Of a stretch of 64,000 bases of DNA, positions 36,673-45,267 are shown piece by piece. The notes under the pieces were generated by a model, which made no database searches, was not told where the DNA came from, and was given only the letters and a program-made list of their open reading frames with translations. Made by a program: the position numbers and the translations under genes. The DNA comes from Pontiella sulfatireligans. GTDB lineage: Bacteria > Verrucomicrobiota > Kiritimatiellia > Kiritimatiellales > Pontiellaceae. Each line of letters opens with the position of its first letter. Position 1 is the stretch's first letter. The stretch is taken from assembly GCF_900890705.1 (NCBI RefSeq), contig NZ_CAAHFH010000001.1:2232001-2296000 (forward strand). Reading direction: 5' to 3'.

Positions 36673-36754
36673 CTTATGAATGCGTAGCTTTGGTAGAGTA
36701 GAGAGCAACGGGCGGCGGTTGCAAGCAATGCCCTTCCCGTTGCTCCCCCTCGTC

Positions 36755-36787
36755 GAACCGGACGTGCGGTTTTCCCGCATCCGGCTC
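36755..36787 (-). ncRNA. Group II intron domain V, copy 2
   Basis: 33-nt hairpin beginning GAGCCGGATGCGGGAAAACC and ending ACGTCCGGTTC, with GAAA loop and catalytic AGC end. It is the closest relative of the copy at 30564-30596. Confidence 0.9.
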
Positions 36788-36802
36788 TCCTGTAAGCGTT
36801 CA

Positions 36803-37789
36803 TCATAGGCGTACCAACCCCAATTCTTCAAGATACCGATAATGGCTCATCCCTTTCGGACGTGCGTACTTTCGCTGGCTCCGTCGGTTCAGGTGGCGAA
36901 CCATCCGTCCCCGCGCATAGTGGCTGATGTCACGGCGGTCTTTTCGAGAGTAGCCATAGTTGAACTAGTTTCCCCAGCCTTGCAGATACCGATTCAGGTC
37001 TTTTACAACCTCGGTTGCGGGCTTGAAGCATTTCTTCGAGTTGGTTTTCTCTTTCAAGGTCTGCCGCGCGCGCTTCATCGATTTCTTTGAAGGATATACA
37101 TTCAGGTACATTTTATCGCGCCCATGCAGGTCGCGATGGTTCTGGAACGTGTACCCGAGGAAGTCGAGTTGCTCGTCCTGCCACAGCTTTACGGTTTTCG
37201 TCTTCTCTTGGTTCAGTCGCAGTCCCATCCATTCTTCGATGGTTCCTTTGACCCATTCATCAATGCGGCTGCCTTGATAGCGGGCGAGGATTACGAAGTC
37301 ATCGGCATAGCGTACCAGCCGGGCATTTGCCCAGTGCCGGGGGCCATCCTTACGGTGGAACATGTGGTCGAACCAGTGGAGATAGACGTTTGCCAGCAAG
37401 GGCGAGATCACCCCGCCTGCCTTGGGTATATTCACCCGTTTAGCCGGACTTGCCCGATAGGTTTTGGCGCATAGTTCTTCATGGATCATTTCCAAAAAGT
37501 CCTTCACTCCATTTTCCCTGTCGAGCAGCTCCTCCGCTGTCACCCCATCGACTCCGGCGGCCTTGCCGCGTTTACCGACGTGCTTGAAGGCCGCCTCCAG
37601 CACATCCTTCCGATAGACTCGGTCGTACAGCGCATAGAAGCGGAACTTCGGTTCAGCTTTCGCTTTTTGATATAGCTTCTGTCTCTGTTCGTGCACTTTG
37701 TCCGGTAGCAGTTCGAGCTGAACATCTCCGATGTCCAGATACCCTCGCTCCGAGATTCCGTAATCGACCAAGGGGTCAAGCGGATGCAT
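36803..37789 (-). pseudogene. Group II intron reverse transcriptase/maturase (ltrA-like)
   Basis: The frame opens MHPLDPLVDYG and has RT-0/1 (AGVDGVTAEELL, RVNIPKA). It then jumps directly to GGVISPLLANVYLHWFD and the YADD active-site motif, so about 90-100 residues with RT-2 to RT-4 and the first catalytic Asp are deleted. An in-frame TAG (36965-36967) interrupts GWGN*FNYGYSRKD, after which the maturase domain continues to LVRL at 36803. Both lesions argue that it is inactive. Confidence 0.9.
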
Positions 37790-38236
37790 AACACCTCCAC
37801 AGTTGCATACTTATAGCCAGCCCCCTTCGCTCCAGACGAGTTGAGTCCTTCTTCGCTACTATGAGGCCATCCGACTCCCTGCAAGCCTGATTACCAGCAG
37901 GGTCTCTCAGGTTCCGCGACTTATCTTTCCCCACGCGCCATCTCCAACCACCCCGGGAAGTCCAGCGACCGCATGCGAATGTTTCTTCATCGCTGGCTAC
38001 AGGTTTCAGCATCTCTGAAGGCTTGACCACTTCCGAATAGCGTAACGAGGCCGAATCGAGTTCTCTACCGTTACGGCTCGCGGGTTCGCCGTTGCGGGCT
38101 TCGGCTTGGGGATTGCTCCTTTCACCGCCGCATTGGCTACCTGTTGAACATTCAATTGACAAGTTCATCTCCTTTCAGATGAAATAAGGGCAGGTGTCCT
38201 GCAGGGGGTGGATGTCCTCCCGTAAAAGTTCATTGG

Positions 38237-39061
38237 TTATAATTCCTTCCCGATATATTGCAAGATGCTTTCGAGCACGATGTTCTCTTCGGCGAACTCA
38301 TCGATGAGCGCGTGGTATTCGAGCACCAGCCTTTCTGATATTTTCACAGCGAAGGCGGTCTCCTTTTCGTCGAGCCCTTTCTGGCGGCAAAGCAGCACTT
38401 GCCGGAAGTTGCGGATGTAGCGGTGGATCGCCTCGGGAGAGTGCCGTGTTTCACGGCTGACCAGCCCGACGTCTTTTCCCTCGAGGAACAGCTTGCGAAT
38501 GATGGGCTTTTTATGGGTGAGCGTCGGCCCCATGTCGTGGATGGTGCCGCGACGCGGCACCAGCTCGTCGGTCTCGAACTCGTATTCGTGGATGTAGCGC
38601 CCGACGGTAGGCGGCGAGATTTTCAATAGGATGGCCACTTCGGCGTTGGTCATGCAGCCGTTCTGGTCGTCGGCCTGTTTGAAGAGGCGGACGGCCGCTT
38701 CTTTCTTGATGTCGCGCAGACGCCTGCCATCGGCCCGGTCGGCGATGTCCTGGGGTTGCACGAGGTCGAGCACGACGCTTTTGAGCCGGGTGTTGCGCAT
38801 GCTTTTGCCGTAGGAAGCGGTTTCGTCCTTGTCGACGGTGACCCATTGGATCTGCCCTTGACGCAGGTGCGAGGTTTCCGGATAGAACTCATTGACCATG
38901 CCCAGGATGGCCTGCACGAGCACCTTGCGGGTGCGCTGGCCGCCGAGCTGGGGACATTCGTCGGCGAAGAACGATTCGAGCGCTCCGACAAAGGTTTTCT
39001 GCATCATCGGGTTGTAGGTGGCCTGGAGGTGGGTCTGTTGTTTTTTCACGGCTGCCTCCAT
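38237..39061 (-). CDS. DUF1670-like protein, second gene of element
   Basis: 274 residues. Contains an HTH (MTNAEVAILLKISPPTVGRYIHEYE, ~148-172) and a C-terminal helical half similar to its partner: LTHKKPIIRKLFLEGKDVGLVSRETRHSPEAIHRYIRNFRQVLL. The N-terminal part (QWVTVDKDETASYGKS, RLKSVVLDLVQPQD) contains acidic residues, but I recognise no catalytic triad. It overlaps the upstream gene by 16 nt, so the two are probably co-translated. Function unknown; recombinase or transposition-regulator roles are inferred only from the element context. Confidence 0.75.
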   Translation of the reverse strand: MEAAVKKQQTHLQATYNPMMQKTFVGALESFFADECPQLGGQRTRKVLVQAILGMVNEFYPETSHLRQGQIQWVTVDKDETASYGKSMRNTRLKSVVLDLVQPQDIADRADGRRLRDIKKEAAVRLFKQADDQNGCMTNAEVAILLKISPPTVGRYIHEYEFETDELVPRRGTIHDMGPTLTHKKPIIRKLFLEGKDVGLVSRETRHSPEAIHRYIRNFRQVLLCRQKGLDEKETAFAVKISERLVLEYHALIDEFAEENIVLESILQYIGKEL

Positions 39062-39915
39062 GCGTTTCTTGCATTCGCGCGGGGTGAAGGTCCCCCTTTT
39101 TGGAAGTCCTCCGCCTCGAAGAACTTCCCGCCGATGATCTCAAGCTCCTGGAGCCTTCGCTTGAACCCCGGGGAGTTGCGGTGTTCGGCGAGCACTTCGA
39201 GATAGGTCTTCACTCCGGCGACGGAAATGCCCATCGTCAACGCCGTTGCGAAACAATCGAACTTGTGCTGCGCAAGGAAGACCACGCGTGCGAAAGCCTG
39301 GATGTAGCGCTCCACCGCGGCAAGACTATGGTTGATCTTACGCGCGACCTCCGGCGTGTCATCGCCATCGATCCAGTGGCGGATCGCCACGCCCCGGTGC
39401 GATACGCCCGGCCCGATGTCCTTCTGCTGGCCGCGCGTGGCCACAATGATCTGTATTTCGCGAAAAGCCCGCACATCGCGACGAATCGTGCGCACATCGC
39501 AATGGAGCAATCTCGCCAGGTCTTCCTGGGAAAGCAACCCGCCTTGCTCGCGGGCTTCTTCGGTCAACCGAAGGATGCAGTGGCGGCGCAGACCGTCCGC
39601 ACCCGACTTATTGGCCTCATTGATATCCCCGGGATCATGGAGGGTCAGCACCACGCGGGCCAAGCGGCATTCCCGCAAAGGCTTGCCTGCGCCCTCCGAG
39701 GTCTCCACGCACTCGTAAAACATCTGTCCGCTTCTCAGCGGCTGGTTCTGCGGTTCCGCGAAGAAGACCTCTTTGACGACCTCGACGAGTTCGTCAGCCT
39801 CCCAGGGGCTTAGTCCAGCCCCCTCGACGGCCAGCTTCGCCAACCGTTGCTCCTGCGTCTTTATTCTTAATCGGCGGGCTTGTTCCGCCTGTGCATTGTC
39901 CGTACGCTTGATCAT
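39046..39915 (-). CDS. DUF1670-like protein, first gene of element
   Basis: 289 residues from ATG 39915 (MIKRTDNAQ), chosen for AAAGGA 7 nt upstream. The middle holds LRRHCILRLTEEAREQGGLLSQEDLARLLHCDVRTIRRDVRAF, a clear HTH. It then has SHRGVAIRHWIDGDDTPEVARKINHSLAAVERYIQAFARVVFL, which resembles the corresponding part of the second gene. The GGACATCCAC next to its ribosome site also occurs inside the terminal repeat. Function unknown. Confidence 0.75.
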   Translation of the reverse strand: MIKRTDNAQAEQARRLRIKTQEQRLAKLAVEGAGLSPWEADELVEVVKEVFFAEPQNQPLRSGQMFYECVETSEGAGKPLRECRLARVVLTLHDPGDINEANKSGADGLRRHCILRLTEEAREQGGLLSQEDLARLLHCDVRTIRRDVRAFREIQIIVATRGQQKDIGPGVSHRGVAIRHWIDGDDTPEVARKINHSLAAVERYIQAFARVVFLAQHKFDCFATALTMGISVAGVKTYLEVLAEHRNSPGFKRRLQELEIIGGKFFEAEDFQKGGPSPRANARNAWRQP

Positions 39916-40009
39916 GTGGATGTCCTTTCTGTTTGTTGGGTTTTCACCCCGCATTATGCGGGGCCAACGGGAGGACATCCACCCCCTGCAGTACACCTGC
40001 CCTTATTTC

Positions 40010-40041
40010 CGATTAAGGGCACCGGACAGGTGCCCTAATCG
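40010..40041. terminator. Strong hairpin abutting the DUF1670 element
   Basis: CGATTA(A)GGGCACC pairs with GGTGCCCTAATCG around GGACA. It starts at the first base outside the element. The minus strand contains ATTAGGGCACCTGTCC, which resembles the element end AATAAGGGCAGGTGTCC, so it may be a target feature or a relic of another end. Confidence 0.55.
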
Positions 40042-40210
40042 GAATAGATAAGTCCGATTTATCCTGACACACCAGAAGATCGCAGAATGAATGATTATGG
40101 CGTAACAACCTGACAGAATTATGGTTAGAATAGCAAACACAGGCGGAGATATTGAATATCCCCGTCTGTCCGCATCGTCGGCAGGGACGGACCGCCGACC
40201 GAGCCCTACC

Positions 40211-40519
40211 TCAGGGATACTGAACTTCAACGCGGTAGAAGAATGATGTGGGCAGGGAGAGCTCGATGAGCTGATCGGTCGCGAGCGCGCCGATGTTAGT
40301 GGCCACGTTCCAATCCGCCGGATCCAATTCAGGCGATTCCGAGACGGTATAACTGCACCCTGCTTTGCCGTTCCACTTCATGGCACCGGATGTGGTCGGC
40401 AGCAGCGTAAAGATCGAATCGGCTCTGGCGGCATCGGTTCCGGCAAGCGCCTCTTCTGGATCCGTGAAGGCGGCGCCGTCAGATTGCCGGAGGAGGCGCA
40501 GATATAGTCGCGTTCCCAC
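40211..40519 (-). pseudogene. C-terminal fragment of a secreted protein
   Basis: Up to 102 residues. The readable part is MKWNGKAGCSYTVSESPELDPADWNVATNIG...IELSLPTSFFYRVEVQYP, a C-terminal beta-domain often seen at the end of large secreted proteins in these bacteria. It is similar in style to the tail of the 45268-48348 protein. The upstream body is absent. Confidence 0.5.
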
Positions 40520-40538
40520 AGATCTGCTACGCCAATGG

Positions 40539-40757
40539 TCACTTCCCTCCCGGCACCCGGGCCTCGATGCGGCAGAAGCGTTGCGGGCTACTCTGTGGAT
40601 CTGTAATCAGGATCGCTGATCCGCTGCCGTTCGTCCATCCATCCGGCATCGGCGGTGTGACCGGCAGCCATCCGTTCGTGGAGGTGAGCTCGTTTTTATA
40701 CACCAGCCGGTATTCAATCCCCGCGGAGGTTATGTAATCATTGACAATGCAAACGCG
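40539..40757 (-). pseudogene. C-terminal fragment in frame after metallophosphoesterase stop
   Basis: 73 codons directly after the TAA at 40758-40760, same frame, reading VNDYITSAGIEYRLVYKNELTSTNGW...ILITDPQSSPQRFCRIEARVPGGK and a stop. It is another secreted-protein tail domain. Either the phosphoesterase lost this tail by a nonsense change or the join is a rearrangement; the overlap with an operator-like module favours the latter. Confidence 0.55.
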
Positions 40758-40764
40758 TTACATT
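40725..40764. promoter_or_regulatory. Second tandem LacI-operator-like module
   Basis: On the minus strand, GGAATGTAACGCGTTTGCAT continues TGTCAATGATTACAT. It matches the lacI promoter module at 26509-26547 at 33 of 38 positions, including the GGAATGTAAC that holds the stop codon of the preceding gene in both places. No intact regulated gene follows. Confidence 0.55.
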
Positions 40765-41789
40765 CCCGGAGGTATCATGGGATAATCTAGGTCGAACCTG
40801 CTGGAAGGGCCGTTTCTGAATTTATCGAGTGCAGGGTTGTAGGTATAGATGCCGATCTTGTTCGCCTCCGGCTGAAAGACCATGGTTCGCAGCCATGATT
40901 GCCCCCCGTTCTCAAGACCCTGGTAGTCGCTCAAAATCTGGTAAACCTGATTTCCGTGATCACCGGTGGAGGTGAGGATCGCCTCTCCGCCGTAGTGCCC
41001 GCAGAGCACCATGAAGATGTTTCTGTGCCTGCTGACAAACTTTTGCCAGATCAGCTCGCCGGGGTTGCCGCCGGGTTTCACCCGCTTGACGGGTCTCATC
41101 TTTCTTGGGTTCAGGTAGGAGTGCGTATTCACAATCACACGGTGGCCTGGATGCTCGGCAACGATTTTATTCGCCCAGTCCAGCACGGCATCGCGCGGCA
41201 TAAATTCAAGATTCACAATCAGGAACTGCATACCGGCAGCCTCGAAGTGATACCAGGAATTGTCATGAAGATCCGGATCGAAGGTGCCGCCGAACTCGCG
41301 CCATTTTGCAAATTTTTCGCGGGGGAAGTAGGTGTTGAATTGCGTAGTCCGATCAACGGCAATCTTGAAGCCATACTTTTTATCCTGAGGCACCTTTTCA
41401 TACCCCATGTCATGGTTGCCCAGACACATGCAGTAAGGCACTACTCCGTCCAGAGCTGACATGGCCTCTTTCGCGATTTCCCATTCCTCCGGCCCGTCCG
41501 CCTGCACGATATCTCCTTCGTGAATGAGAAACGCGATGTTGAGCCGCTCCTGATTGTCACGCACCCAGCGGGTTTGCTCGAAAAAGTAGCGACGCAGGTC
41601 TCCGTTGCCCCACTTGCTCGACAGCTTGTGTCGCGTGTCGGCATAGAACTGGGTGTCAGGCAAAACCGCAATGGTGAACGCCTGCCCCTCTTTAAAGTTC
41701 GGCAAGCTCGCAGGCAACGGCTCCGCCACCGCAAACAGTTGAGATAGCAAGGCTATTAGAAGAACTGAGACTCTATTCGTTTTCATCAA
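40758..41789 (-). CDS. Secreted calcineurin-like metallophosphoesterase
   Basis: 343 residues with an N-terminal signal peptide (SVLLIALLSQLFAVAEP). The metal motifs are in order: Asp45 (LPDTQFYAD), GDIVQ (Asp93), GNHD (124-127), NTHSY and GHYGG. Substrates of such enzymes range from phosphomonoesters to nucleotides. It stands alone upstream of fragments and downstream of the unknown-family triplet, without operon evidence. Confidence 0.9.
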   Translation of the reverse strand: MMKTNRVSVLLIALLSQLFAVAEPLPASLPNFKEGQAFTIAVLPDTQFYADTRHKLSSKWGNGDLRRYFFEQTRWVRDNQERLNIAFLIHEGDIVQADGPEEWEIAKEAMSALDGVVPYCMCLGNHDMGYEKVPQDKKYGFKIAVDRTTQFNTYFPREKFAKWREFGGTFDPDLHDNSWYHFEAAGMQFLIVNLEFMPRDAVLDWANKIVAEHPGHRVIVNTHSYLNPRKMRPVKRVKPGGNPGELIWQKFVSRHRNIFMVLCGHYGGEAILTSTGDHGNQVYQILSDYQGLENGGQSWLRTMVFQPEANKIGIYTYNPALDKFRNGPSSRFDLDYPMIPPGM

Positions 41790-41947: not shown

Positions 41948-43249
41948 TCAGGGACAATCATTACTCCATAATTCTTTAATCACAACCTCCAGGTCCGTAC
42001 CGGCCGAGCAATGTTCTTTCAGGTTCGCCTGAAAGCGTCTGAAGATTTCATTCTTCTTGAGCTTATACATCCGGTTCCCCGGCATTTCCAAATATCCGAC
42101 GCTGTCATGTTCCTTCAGCCAGTTGAAGGCGTAGCGCAGCCATTGATTGCGCTGAGCCTCATCCAGTGACGCGAACCAGCTCATTTCGTCATATCCCCAA
42201 ACCCAAAAACTGTCGAGGTCAGCAACCCCGGGATTCCGCGCACCTCCGAAGATATCAAATTCGACCAGATAGGGGATGCGTTTGCAGGACCATCCACTGG
42301 GAGTGATTCCGCCCGGAGTTTTCCCGTAAATCGAGCTAATATGGCCCACTTCCAGCAGCCCACCGCCTTCGTTGCTAAGATCCTCTTTTACCCGCAAGGG
42401 GAATGAGGAAAAGTCAAAAAGGAAATGACCATCTGCCGTCTTCAGACCAAAGGTTGCCTGATCCATATGTGCGTCACACAGGACTGTGCCTCGCCGAGCG
42501 TGCTTGAGGGCATAAGCCCGCACTTTGCCCAACACCGTCTGCCAGGCGGCAAAATCATTCTTCTTGTCAACCATGGCGATTTTCGACGCTTGCCCCCAGT
42601 GAATGGCCTCGATCCCGATATCGATGTACTGCTTGGCCATAAAGAAGAAGAAGAGCTGGGTTTCCGTTTGGGCAATATCCGGAACCGTAAAGTTTGGGGG
42701 CCAATTGACGTCCTCGGCCCAAAACTTGCCATCAGGATTGATCATCGCCTCATAGCTGAAGTTCCGTTGTTCCGGCTTCATTCCGAACTCTTCAAATACC
42801 CAGTCCGGGATCGGGACTACATTTACTTTTTTACTAATACATTCAAAGATCCCAGCCTGAAAAATAACGGTTGGATCCTCACGATGGACCGCTTCAATTT
42901 TTTTCTCTGCCGCAACCAGCCAGCCGGGCTTATTAAACAACTGCGGGTTATTCCACTGCTTGACGGCGCGGCCGACAAACTTGGCCCCGATATTCAGAAT
43001 CATGCGGGCGTCATCATCCGCATCAGGATAGAGGAATGTATCTTTATAATAGCCGTCTGAATGCAGGCATTCTTCAATGGTAATCGCACGGGACAGGTAA
43101 TTTTCCAACACCTCCTGTGAGATGACCCCATCACTAAACGCGTAGTTGCGCTGGTCGCCCGATTGAGAGGCGGCCTCGGTCGCCTGCAAGGACCCCGCTC
43201 CCGCAGCTATTGCCATACAAAGACGTGTCGACCTGTTCCAGCGCATCAT
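41948..43249 (-). CDS. Unrecognised secreted protein, family copy 1
   Basis: 433 residues from ATG 43249 (MMRWNRSTRLC, GAGG 6 nt upstream), giving a signal peptide ending near ATEAA. An in-frame start at 43432 behind a better GGAGG would add 61 residues before the signal peptide. Conserved blocks in all three copies are AITIEECLHSDG, IPDWVFEEFGM, IDIGIEAIHWGQ, VLCDAHM, LLEVGHISSIYG and GYLEMPGNR. The His/Glu/Asp-rich blocks and the pattern of strands suggest a glycoside-hydrolase-like barrel, but I cannot name a family. The 3' flank is also duplicated behind copy 2. Confidence 0.7.
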   Translation of the reverse strand: MMRWNRSTRLCMAIAAGAGSLQATEAASQSGDQRNYAFSDGVISQEVLENYLSRAITIEECLHSDGYYKDTFLYPDADDDARMILNIGAKFVGRAVKQWNNPQLFNKPGWLVAAEKKIEAVHREDPTVIFQAGIFECISKKVNVVPIPDWVFEEFGMKPEQRNFSYEAMINPDGKFWAEDVNWPPNFTVPDIAQTETQLFFFFMAKQYIDIGIEAIHWGQASKIAMVDKKNDFAAWQTVLGKVRAYALKHARRGTVLCDAHMDQATFGLKTADGHFLFDFSSFPLRVKEDLSNEGGGLLEVGHISSIYGKTPGGITPSGWSCKRIPYLVEFDIFGGARNPGVADLDSFWVWGYDEMSWFASLDEAQRNQWLRYAFNWLKEHDSVGYLEMPGNRMYKLKKNEIFRRFQANLKEHCSAGTDLEVVIKELWSNDCP

Positions 43250-43541
43250 TTGTTTCCTCATCGAATGAAGCACGGCGGTCATACCGTTCACAGCGCGCCC
43301 GCCGGTCGGGGCGCAGCCGACCACAAACGAATCACCGTAATTGCGGCCCTCCGCATTTAAAGTAAATTTCTTCGCTACATCCTGCTTGAACAGTATGACA
43401 GAATCCTTAACAAGCTCTACTCTCGTATTCATAACACCTCCATATAAATGCAAATATGTAAAAATCGATTCTTATTCCATAAACACGGCGTTCATACCGT
43501 TCACCCTAAAACTCTACTTAGAACCGAGAAACTACAATTTC

Positions 43542-43785: not shown

Positions 43786-45090
43786 TCAGGGACAATCATT
43801 ACTCCATAATTCTTTAATCACAACCTCCAGGTCCGTACCGGCCGAGCAATGTTCTTTCAGGTTCGCCTGAAAGCGTCTGAAGATTTCATTCTTCTTGAGC
43901 TGATAGATCCGGTTCCCCGGCATTTCCAAATATCCGACGCTGTCATGTTCCTTCAGCCAGTTGAAGGCGTAGCGCAGCCATTGATTGCGCTGAGCCTCAT
44001 CCAATGACGCAAACCAGCTCATTTCGTCATATCCCCAGACCCAATGACTGTCGAGGTCAGCAACCCCGGGATTCCGCGCACCTCCGAAGATATCAAATTC
44101 GACCAGATAGGGGATGCGTTTGCAGGACCATCCACTGGGAGTGATTCCGCCCGGAGTTCTCCCGTAAATCGAGCTAATATGGCCCACTTCCAGCAGCCCA
44201 CCGCCTTCATTGGCAAGGTCCTCTTTCACCCGCAAGGGGAATGAGGAAAAGTCAAAAAGGAAATGACCATCTGCCGTCTTCAGACCAAAGGTGTTCGATT
44301 CCATGTGTGCGTCACATAGGACAGTGCCTCGCCGAGCGTGCTTGAGGGCATAAGCCCGCACTTTGCCCAACACCGTCTGCCAGGCGGCAAAATCATTCTT
44401 CTTGTCAACCATGGCGATTTTCGACGCTTGCCCCCAGTGAATGGCCTCGATCCCGATATCGATGTACTGCTTGGCCATAAAGAAGAAGAAGAGCTGGGTT
44501 TCCGTTTGGGCAATATCCGGAACCGTAAAGTTTGGGGGCCAATTGACGTCCCCGGCCCATAACTTGCCATCGGGATTGATCATCGCGTCATAGCTGAAGT
44601 TCCGTTGTTCCGGCTTCATTCCGAACTCTTCAAACACCCAGTCCGGGATCGGGACTACATTTACTTTTTCAGAAATACATTCAAAGATCCCAGCCTGAAA
44701 AATAACGGTTGGATCCTCACGATGGACCGCTTCAATTTTGTTCTCTGCCGCAACCAGCCAGCCGGGCTTATTAAACAACTGCGGACTATTCCACTGCTTG
44801 ACGGCGCGGCCGACAAACTTGGCCCCGACATTCAGAATCATGCGGACGTCATCATCCGCATCATGATAGACTGCAGGATTATTGTAATAGCCGTCTGAAT
44901 GCAGGCATTCTTCAATGGTAATCGCACGGGAGAGGTAATTTTCCAGCACCTCCTGTGAGATCTCCCCATCAAGAAACGCGTAATTGCGATGATCGGCCGG
45001 GGGAGAGGCAGCCTCGGTTGCCTGCGTCAAGGCCCCCGCTCCCACCACCATCGCCATACAAAGACGTGTCGACCTGTTCCAGCGCATCAT
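43786..45090 (-). CDS. Unrecognised secreted protein, family copy 2
   Basis: 434 residues from ATG 45090, signal peptide (MAMVVGAGALTQATEAA). Most of the sequence equals copy 1, with runs of complete identity. As in copy 1, an upstream in-frame ATG (45228) behind GGAGG would add a leader whose GRNYGDSF.VGCAPTG segment is shared. It lies 40 nt (longer ORF) downstream of copy 3, so an operon of copies 3-2 is likely. Confidence 0.7.
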   Translation of the reverse strand: MMRWNRSTRLCMAMVVGAGALTQATEAASPPADHRNYAFLDGEISQEVLENYLSRAITIEECLHSDGYYNNPAVYHDADDDVRMILNVGAKFVGRAVKQWNSPQLFNKPGWLVAAENKIEAVHREDPTVIFQAGIFECISEKVNVVPIPDWVFEEFGMKPEQRNFSYDAMINPDGKLWAGDVNWPPNFTVPDIAQTETQLFFFFMAKQYIDIGIEAIHWGQASKIAMVDKKNDFAAWQTVLGKVRAYALKHARRGTVLCDAHMESNTFGLKTADGHFLFDFSSFPLRVKEDLANEGGGLLEVGHISSIYGRTPGGITPSGWSCKRIPYLVEFDIFGGARNPGVADLDSHWVWGYDEMSWFASLDEAQRNQWLRYAFNWLKEHDSVGYLEMPGNRIYQLKKNEIFRRFQANLKEHCSAGTDLEVVIKELWSNDCP

Positions 45091-45267
45091 TTGTTTCCTC
45101 ATCGAATAAACCACGGCGGTCATACCGTTCACATCGCGCCTGCCGGTCGGGGCGCAGCCGACCGCAAACGAGTCACCGTAGTTGCGGCCGTCCGCAGAAA
45201 CCTTAATAAACTCTGTACCCGTATTCATAAAACCTCCATATAAATGTAAATATATAAAAATCGGTTC

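Follow-up and report, generated by a model that had tools for sequence, protein, structure and literature searches.

The window, a 64,000-nt stretch of the Pontiella sulfatireligans genome, contains a two-gene element of 1861 bp on the minus strand which is mobile, as relatives occur in several near-identical copies at different sites, with both filled and empty sites. Both of its products, gA and gB, are clear members of Pfam family DUF1670 (PF07900), which is described only as of unknown function. Our main reading, held with a probability of roughly 0.62, is that this is an autonomous insertion-sequence-like element of ca. 1.8–1.9 kb whose recombinase consists of gA and gB together; catalysis is inferred. 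With the same reservation, the element likely represents an undescribed way of moving DNA.

Boundaries and layout of the element

The outer ends were placed by comparison with relatives, anchored on conserved end motifs, as local alignment by itself mis-placed several ends. The length of 1861 bp is counted between the outer bases of the right end (RE, 38182) and the left end (LE, 40042), with the flanking TT assumed to be target.

Table 1. Features of the DUF1670 element, in window coordinates.
Feature	Position	Strand	Basis and remarks
Whole element	38182..40042	-	Ends by relatives: LE CCGATTAGGGCACCTGTCC, RE GGACACCTGCCCTTATTT
Right end (RE), GGACACCTGCCCTTATTT	38182..38199	-	Conserved in at least 13 elements of several phyla; archaeal form GGTCATTTGCCACTATTT
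Inner second copy of the end motif in RE, GGACATCCAC	38208..38217	-	Sequence, and RE regions compared by reading
gB, second DUF1670 protein, 274 aa	38237..39061	-	PF07900, E-value 2.8e-55
gA, first DUF1670 protein, 289 aa	39046..39915	-	PF07900, E-value 3.7e-50; GTG at 39996 opens a longer ORF
GGACATCCAC in the leader, abutting the gA start codon	39916..39925	-	Direct sequence
Internal inverted copy of RE	39967..40008	-	Pairs with 38182-38223, giving the 43-bp repeat of the first-pass annotation
Left-end palindrome, TTCCGATTAGGGCACC.TGTCC.GGTGCCCTTAATCGGAA, 38 nt	40007..40044		Inverted-repeat search and comparison of ends
Left end (LE), CCGATTAGGGCACCTGTCC	40024..40042	-	Conserved in relatives
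TT dinucleotide 5' of LE	40043..40044	-	Strict target base pair; target or 2-bp duplication; 32/32 insertions

The first-pass annotation, made from the sequence alone, had described a 43-bp inverted repeat with one mismatch that exactly brackets two overlapping DUF1670-type genes. The repeat was confirmed (38181–38223 against 39967–40009; 43 nt, 98% complementary), with a runner-up inverted pair within 4 kb of 26 nt and 77%. The gene pair was confirmed as well, the two genes overlapping by 16 nt on the minus strand, as was the GGACATCCAC repeat in the leader of the first gene. The exact bracketing failed, since the true right-hand boundary lies 33 bp further out, at 40042, and the left outer base is 38182. 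The start of gA is likely the ATG at 39915, not the GTG upstream.

The 43-bp repeat arises because this lineage carries an additional, inverted copy of its right end. Together, the left-end palindrome and the internal RE copy spell the RE–LE junction CCCTTATTTCCGATTA. Among the genomes examined, this layout is common only to G160 (locus L048) and G294 (L139–L142) and is absent from most relatives, and the repeat is therefore a derived feature of that group. Four contigs of G294 (L139–L142) break at the same left end carrying the internal RE–LE junction, which implies several copies in that genome, though no DUF1670 gene is reported in its assembly.

In relatives, the general ends (slash, element boundary) read TT/[AC]CGATTAGGGCAnnTGTCC for LE and GGnCAnnTGCCCTTATTT/ for RE, and the archaeal elements, with TT/ACnATTnGnCnAATGTCC and GGYCATTTGCCACTATTT/, have recognisably the same ends as the bacterial ones, so that the ends are conserved in both domains. 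The palindrome GGnCAnnTGnCC is present at both ends. When the RE regions were compared by reading, many showed a second palindrome copy 17 bp further inward, and many other elements carried a 17-bp tandem repeat of GGACAnnTGCC at the place of the inner RE motif.

A truncated group II intron reverse transcriptase/maturase (36965–37789; PF00078, weak GIIM) adjoins the element. The sister genome G404 is contiguous across 36692/40073 and lacks the whole 36693–40072 segment, intron remnant included, and the empty site of the window copy is therefore unreadable there. On the other side lie two tandem, closely similar genes (41948–43453 and 43786–45228; 501 and 480 aa), the first without a Pfam match; in G404 locus L149, both align to one and the same region, from 5252.

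Copies, empty sites and target sequence

The window's own genome holds one full copy and three degraded fragments, and mobility therefore had to be shown in other genomes. Of 388 genomes surveyed from the phylum, 21 carried DUF1670 genes, and intact copies generally had these as an adjacent pair. One of the phylum's genomes, G318, carries 14 copies, each at a different, unrelated site, which fall into two families of near-identical members: family A with four copies of ca. 1.79 kb (99.4–99.9% identical), and family B with about ten copies of ca. 1.89 kb (99.8–100% identical among those compared). In every copy, the identical stretch breaks off abruptly at the same bases, and all detected LE (14) and RE (13) copies of G318 belong to gene-bearing elements.

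Empty sites were sought by searching the joined flanks of copies. The site of copy L042 was found empty in the same genome, ca. 16 kb away (L105; 100% identical over 439 bp), where it reads GCGTTTT/GTGTTACC without interruption (GCGTTTT/GTGTT), and again in the sister genome G195 (L106, 92% identity). Further empty homologues were identified for L061 in G212 and G195 (L107, L112), for L045 in G212 (L111), and for L047 in G388 (L108). As the empty sites are uninterrupted, insertion is exact. The element thus behaves as an insertion sequence in the general sense, being short, with inverted ends, multiple copies, and filled and empty sites; that it also encodes the enzyme which moves it is inferred from DUF1670 genes being the only ones inside. 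The first-pass annotation had proposed a mobile unit, to be refuted if the repeats occurred only once, without empty sites, or if the genes always occurred without repeats. The proposal held: repeats and gene pair recur in related genomes, exact empty sites exist, and the end copies of G318 all lie in gene-bearing elements.

One family B copy (L066; contig C17, 2922–6332) measures 3410 bp, its gA and gB being separated by an insert of ca. 1.5 kb that may itself be a nested element. The right flank of L041, a family A copy, directly adjoins the apparent 3' end of a tRNA gene (GGTGGGACTTGAACCCACACGACC). No relative was found in the plasmid and phage collections searched, and IMG/VR returned one locus, 100% identical to an archaeal locus.

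The two bases before LE were TT in all 32 insertions. Position -3 of the target was T in 23/32, position -4 was A (24/32) or T (8/32), and position +5 was T in 24/29, which gives the preference TTATTT/nagAT with invariant TT. This target resembles the joined RE–LE junction, TTATTT/nCGAT, far above background. Over seven positions, the TT left out, the mean match was 4.25, compared with 2.05 (sd 0.24) for the rest of these flanks, and none of 20,000 resamplings attained the observed value; for the right side of the target alone, there were 1.83 matches against 1.00 (sd 0.17; resampling maximum 1.71).

No target duplication beyond a possible TT was seen at the insertions compared. Whether TT is duplicated or merely common to target and RE is undecidable from these sequences, and a DDE-type reaction is not formally excluded. 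Because insertion is exact, leaves no longer duplication and uses a target like the RE–LE junction, we infer site-specific recombination of an excised, end-joined form with the chromosome. Insertion is thus likely conservative, probably via a circle, on sequence evidence only: a search for abutted RE–LE junctions returned only the junction inside the LE of G294, and no free circle DNA was seen.

The DUF1670 proteins and the candidate catalyst

With PF07900 scores of 187.5 and 170.8 bits against a family cut-off of 25, gA and gB meet the requirement for membership. The two are paralogs that share 32% identity across 195 residues, and both show weak helix-turn-helix (HTH) matches, which bears out the earlier claims of an HTH and a similar C-terminal block in both products. 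Pairs of gA and gB were found in Pontiellaceae, Victivallales, Opitutales, Chlamydiae, Hydrogenedentes, Desulfobulbales, Spirochaetales, anammox bacteria, Aerophobetes and Methanosarcinales. Carriers of the element include the strains Desulfobulbus rhabdoformis DSM 8777 and Desulfoprunum benzoelyticum DSM 28570. In the joint tree, gA and gB each form one clade with full separation (support 100/100), their distances correlate (rho 0.89), and dN/dS is 0.05–0.12 (against G160, 0.08 for gA and 0.12 for gB). One ancient duplication was followed by joint descent of gA and gB under strong purifying selection. L100 seems at first sight to encode a gA–gB fusion of 570 aa, but this reading was rejected because its latter half is out of frame.

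These data bear on the reading, also raised by the first-pass annotation, that the element is a non-autonomous cassette, a passenger which depends on an unrelated transposase acting in trans. In its favour, no recognised enzyme lies inside the element. Against it, none of the elements found combines these ends with a different enzyme, the ends come with the gene pair in the multi-copy genome G318, and the pair has been kept very long under purifying selection. We regard this explanation as very unlikely.

Confident AlphaFold2 models (pLDDT 87.6 for gB and 86.5 for gA) give the proteins a helical N-terminal part and a beta hairpin in addition to several HTH units. In gB numbering, G69, Q70, K86, R125, A130, Q133, T152, R171, G172, D176, G178, H183, H207, S208 and Y215 are near-invariant in both paralogs; seven of these are charged, His or Tyr residues (K86, R125, R171, D176, H183, H207 and Y215). 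H207 and Y215 sit in an apparent HTH recognition helix, a place where residues of this kind can have a structural role. A metal site was considered for the acidic residues that are invariant in gA alone (E120, E131, D132 and D147), but the idea was dropped because they fall in a DeoR-like HTH pattern.

Neither gA nor gB matched a catalytic profile of nucleases or of DDE, tyrosine, serine or HUH enzymes, in agreement with the earlier remark that no DDE, Y- or S-recombinase motif is visible. The proposed structure prediction revealed no nuclease or recombinase fold in either AlphaFold model: Foldseek against PDB gave nothing at E-value ≤1e-3, the matches being mostly HTH regulators, and BFVD gave only low-TM matches, including a phage "endonuclease" at TM 0.20. 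For DDE enzymes, no RNase H-like fold match and no acidic triad common to the paralogs were found; for HUH enzymes, no HxH occurs among the conserved columns. The resolvase HTH (PF02796) was weakly matched by 8 members, and the serine recombinase catalytic domain is absent from the families matched by members. For tyrosine recombinases, profile and fold matches were missing, and the residue types are right in the wrong order. For IS110/IS1111, there was no DEDD profile match and no Rfam match in 37000–41000. PADLOC gave no match. Thus, the element satisfies the membership criteria of none of the known transposase or recombinase classes, though an unclassified ISfinder listing is possible (ISfinder was not compared).

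A highly divergent DDE (RNase H-like) transposase making a 2-bp TT target duplication, like IS630/Tc1 with TA, would account for the terminal inverted repeats. Transposases of this kind typically have paired HTH domains joined by a basic PRRG linker, and the TT on either side could formally be a 2-bp duplication. However, neither model is RNase H-like, no DDE triad is conserved in both paralogs, TT is not palindromic, and the target is like the RE–LE junction both left and right of the cut, a likeness that a DDE reaction would not require. This alternative is also very unlikely.

That the transposition enzyme is itself DUF1670-like, as the first-pass annotation suggested, remains the best-supported reading, DNA cutting by DUF1670 being inferred and not shown. 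The inference rests on the typical element holding nothing else, on the constraint on the pair over two domains of life, on the two proteins always being kept in intact copies, and on the same reactive-type residues being kept in both. Counting against DUF1670 as the catalyst, no catalytic fold was found and no free circle junction was seen.

The main rival holds that the DUF1670 proteins merely bind DNA, as architectural proteins or regulators, and that a near-universal host enzyme, e.g. a Xer recombinase, cuts and joins. The models are largely HTH domains without a nuclease fold, conservative and site-specific insertion fits a host site-specific recombinase, and there is precedent for elements exploiting XerCD. 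On the other hand, the element ends are unlike dif sites; the same end sequences in Bacteria and Archaea would require host enzyme and site to be conserved over both domains; and two constrained paralogs with seven invariant charged, His or Tyr residues exceed the needs of binding alone. We consider this rival unlikely.

If gA and gB are themselves the recombinase, they would bind the GGnCAnnTGnCC end palindromes via their HTH domains; binding of the ends, already suggested by the first-pass annotation, is inferred only, without binding data. They would then connect RE with LE in an excised circular form, and the junction (TTATTT/[AC]CGAT) would be recombined with a look-alike sequence in the chromosome. 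By analogy with XerC and XerD, the two paralogs may possibly split strands or half-sites. Most speculatively, the chemistry would be performed by the residues invariant in both paralogs (K86...Y215 in gB), with Y215 as candidate nucleophile. A bolder reading is that the DUF1670 pair constitutes a new HTH-built recombinase class with an unknown active site, serving bacterial and archaeal insertion sequences by site-specific recombination between the circle junction and TTATTT-like targets; this joint claim we hold as no safer than its negation.

Significance and relation to known systems

The known enzymes of prokaryotic mobile elements belong to few chemistries (DDE, DEDD, HUH, serine, tyrosine and Cas1-type). 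An element that has moved, in two domains of life, with only a family of unknown function inside and no matching fold, points to an overlooked enzyme class. The finding would give DUF1670 a function, and annotators should call such genes mobile. The system is compact, needing only two proteins and a short, defined target, and could be reconstituted in vitro. Neither DUF1670 nor PF07900 is named in any paper of the literature searched, broader searches of titles and abstracts returned no matching element, and no mobile element was assigned to DUF1670 in the sources searched.

Among known systems, XerC/XerD tyrosine recombinases are alike in having two paralogs, a target like the RE–LE junction, and invariant K, R, R, H, H and Y. 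The DUF1670 proteins differ in giving no profile or fold match and in their order K, R, R, D, H, H, Y, which is not the canonical R-K-H-R-H-Y; because the order differs and the fold is missing, membership is not claimed. IS607 and other serine-recombinase insertion sequences share conservative insertion (likely here), a 2-bp core, the absence of a long target duplication and a presumed circle, whereas the DUF1670 element has no serine catalytic domain, its inverted end motifs are defined, and its target is TTATTT-like. IS200/IS605 elements (HUH Y1) likewise insert 3' of a short fixed sequence (here TTATTT-like) without target duplication (here none beyond a possible TT), and one end carries a similar sequence; in contrast, the DUF1670 element lacks the HUH motif and has inverted, protein-binding-like palindromes at its ends and two paired proteins. 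IS110/IS1111 elements (DEDD, bridge or seek RNA) resemble it in site preference and short core; unlike these, the DUF1670 element is without a DEDD domain or long non-coding region, and its target is near-constant across unrelated members.
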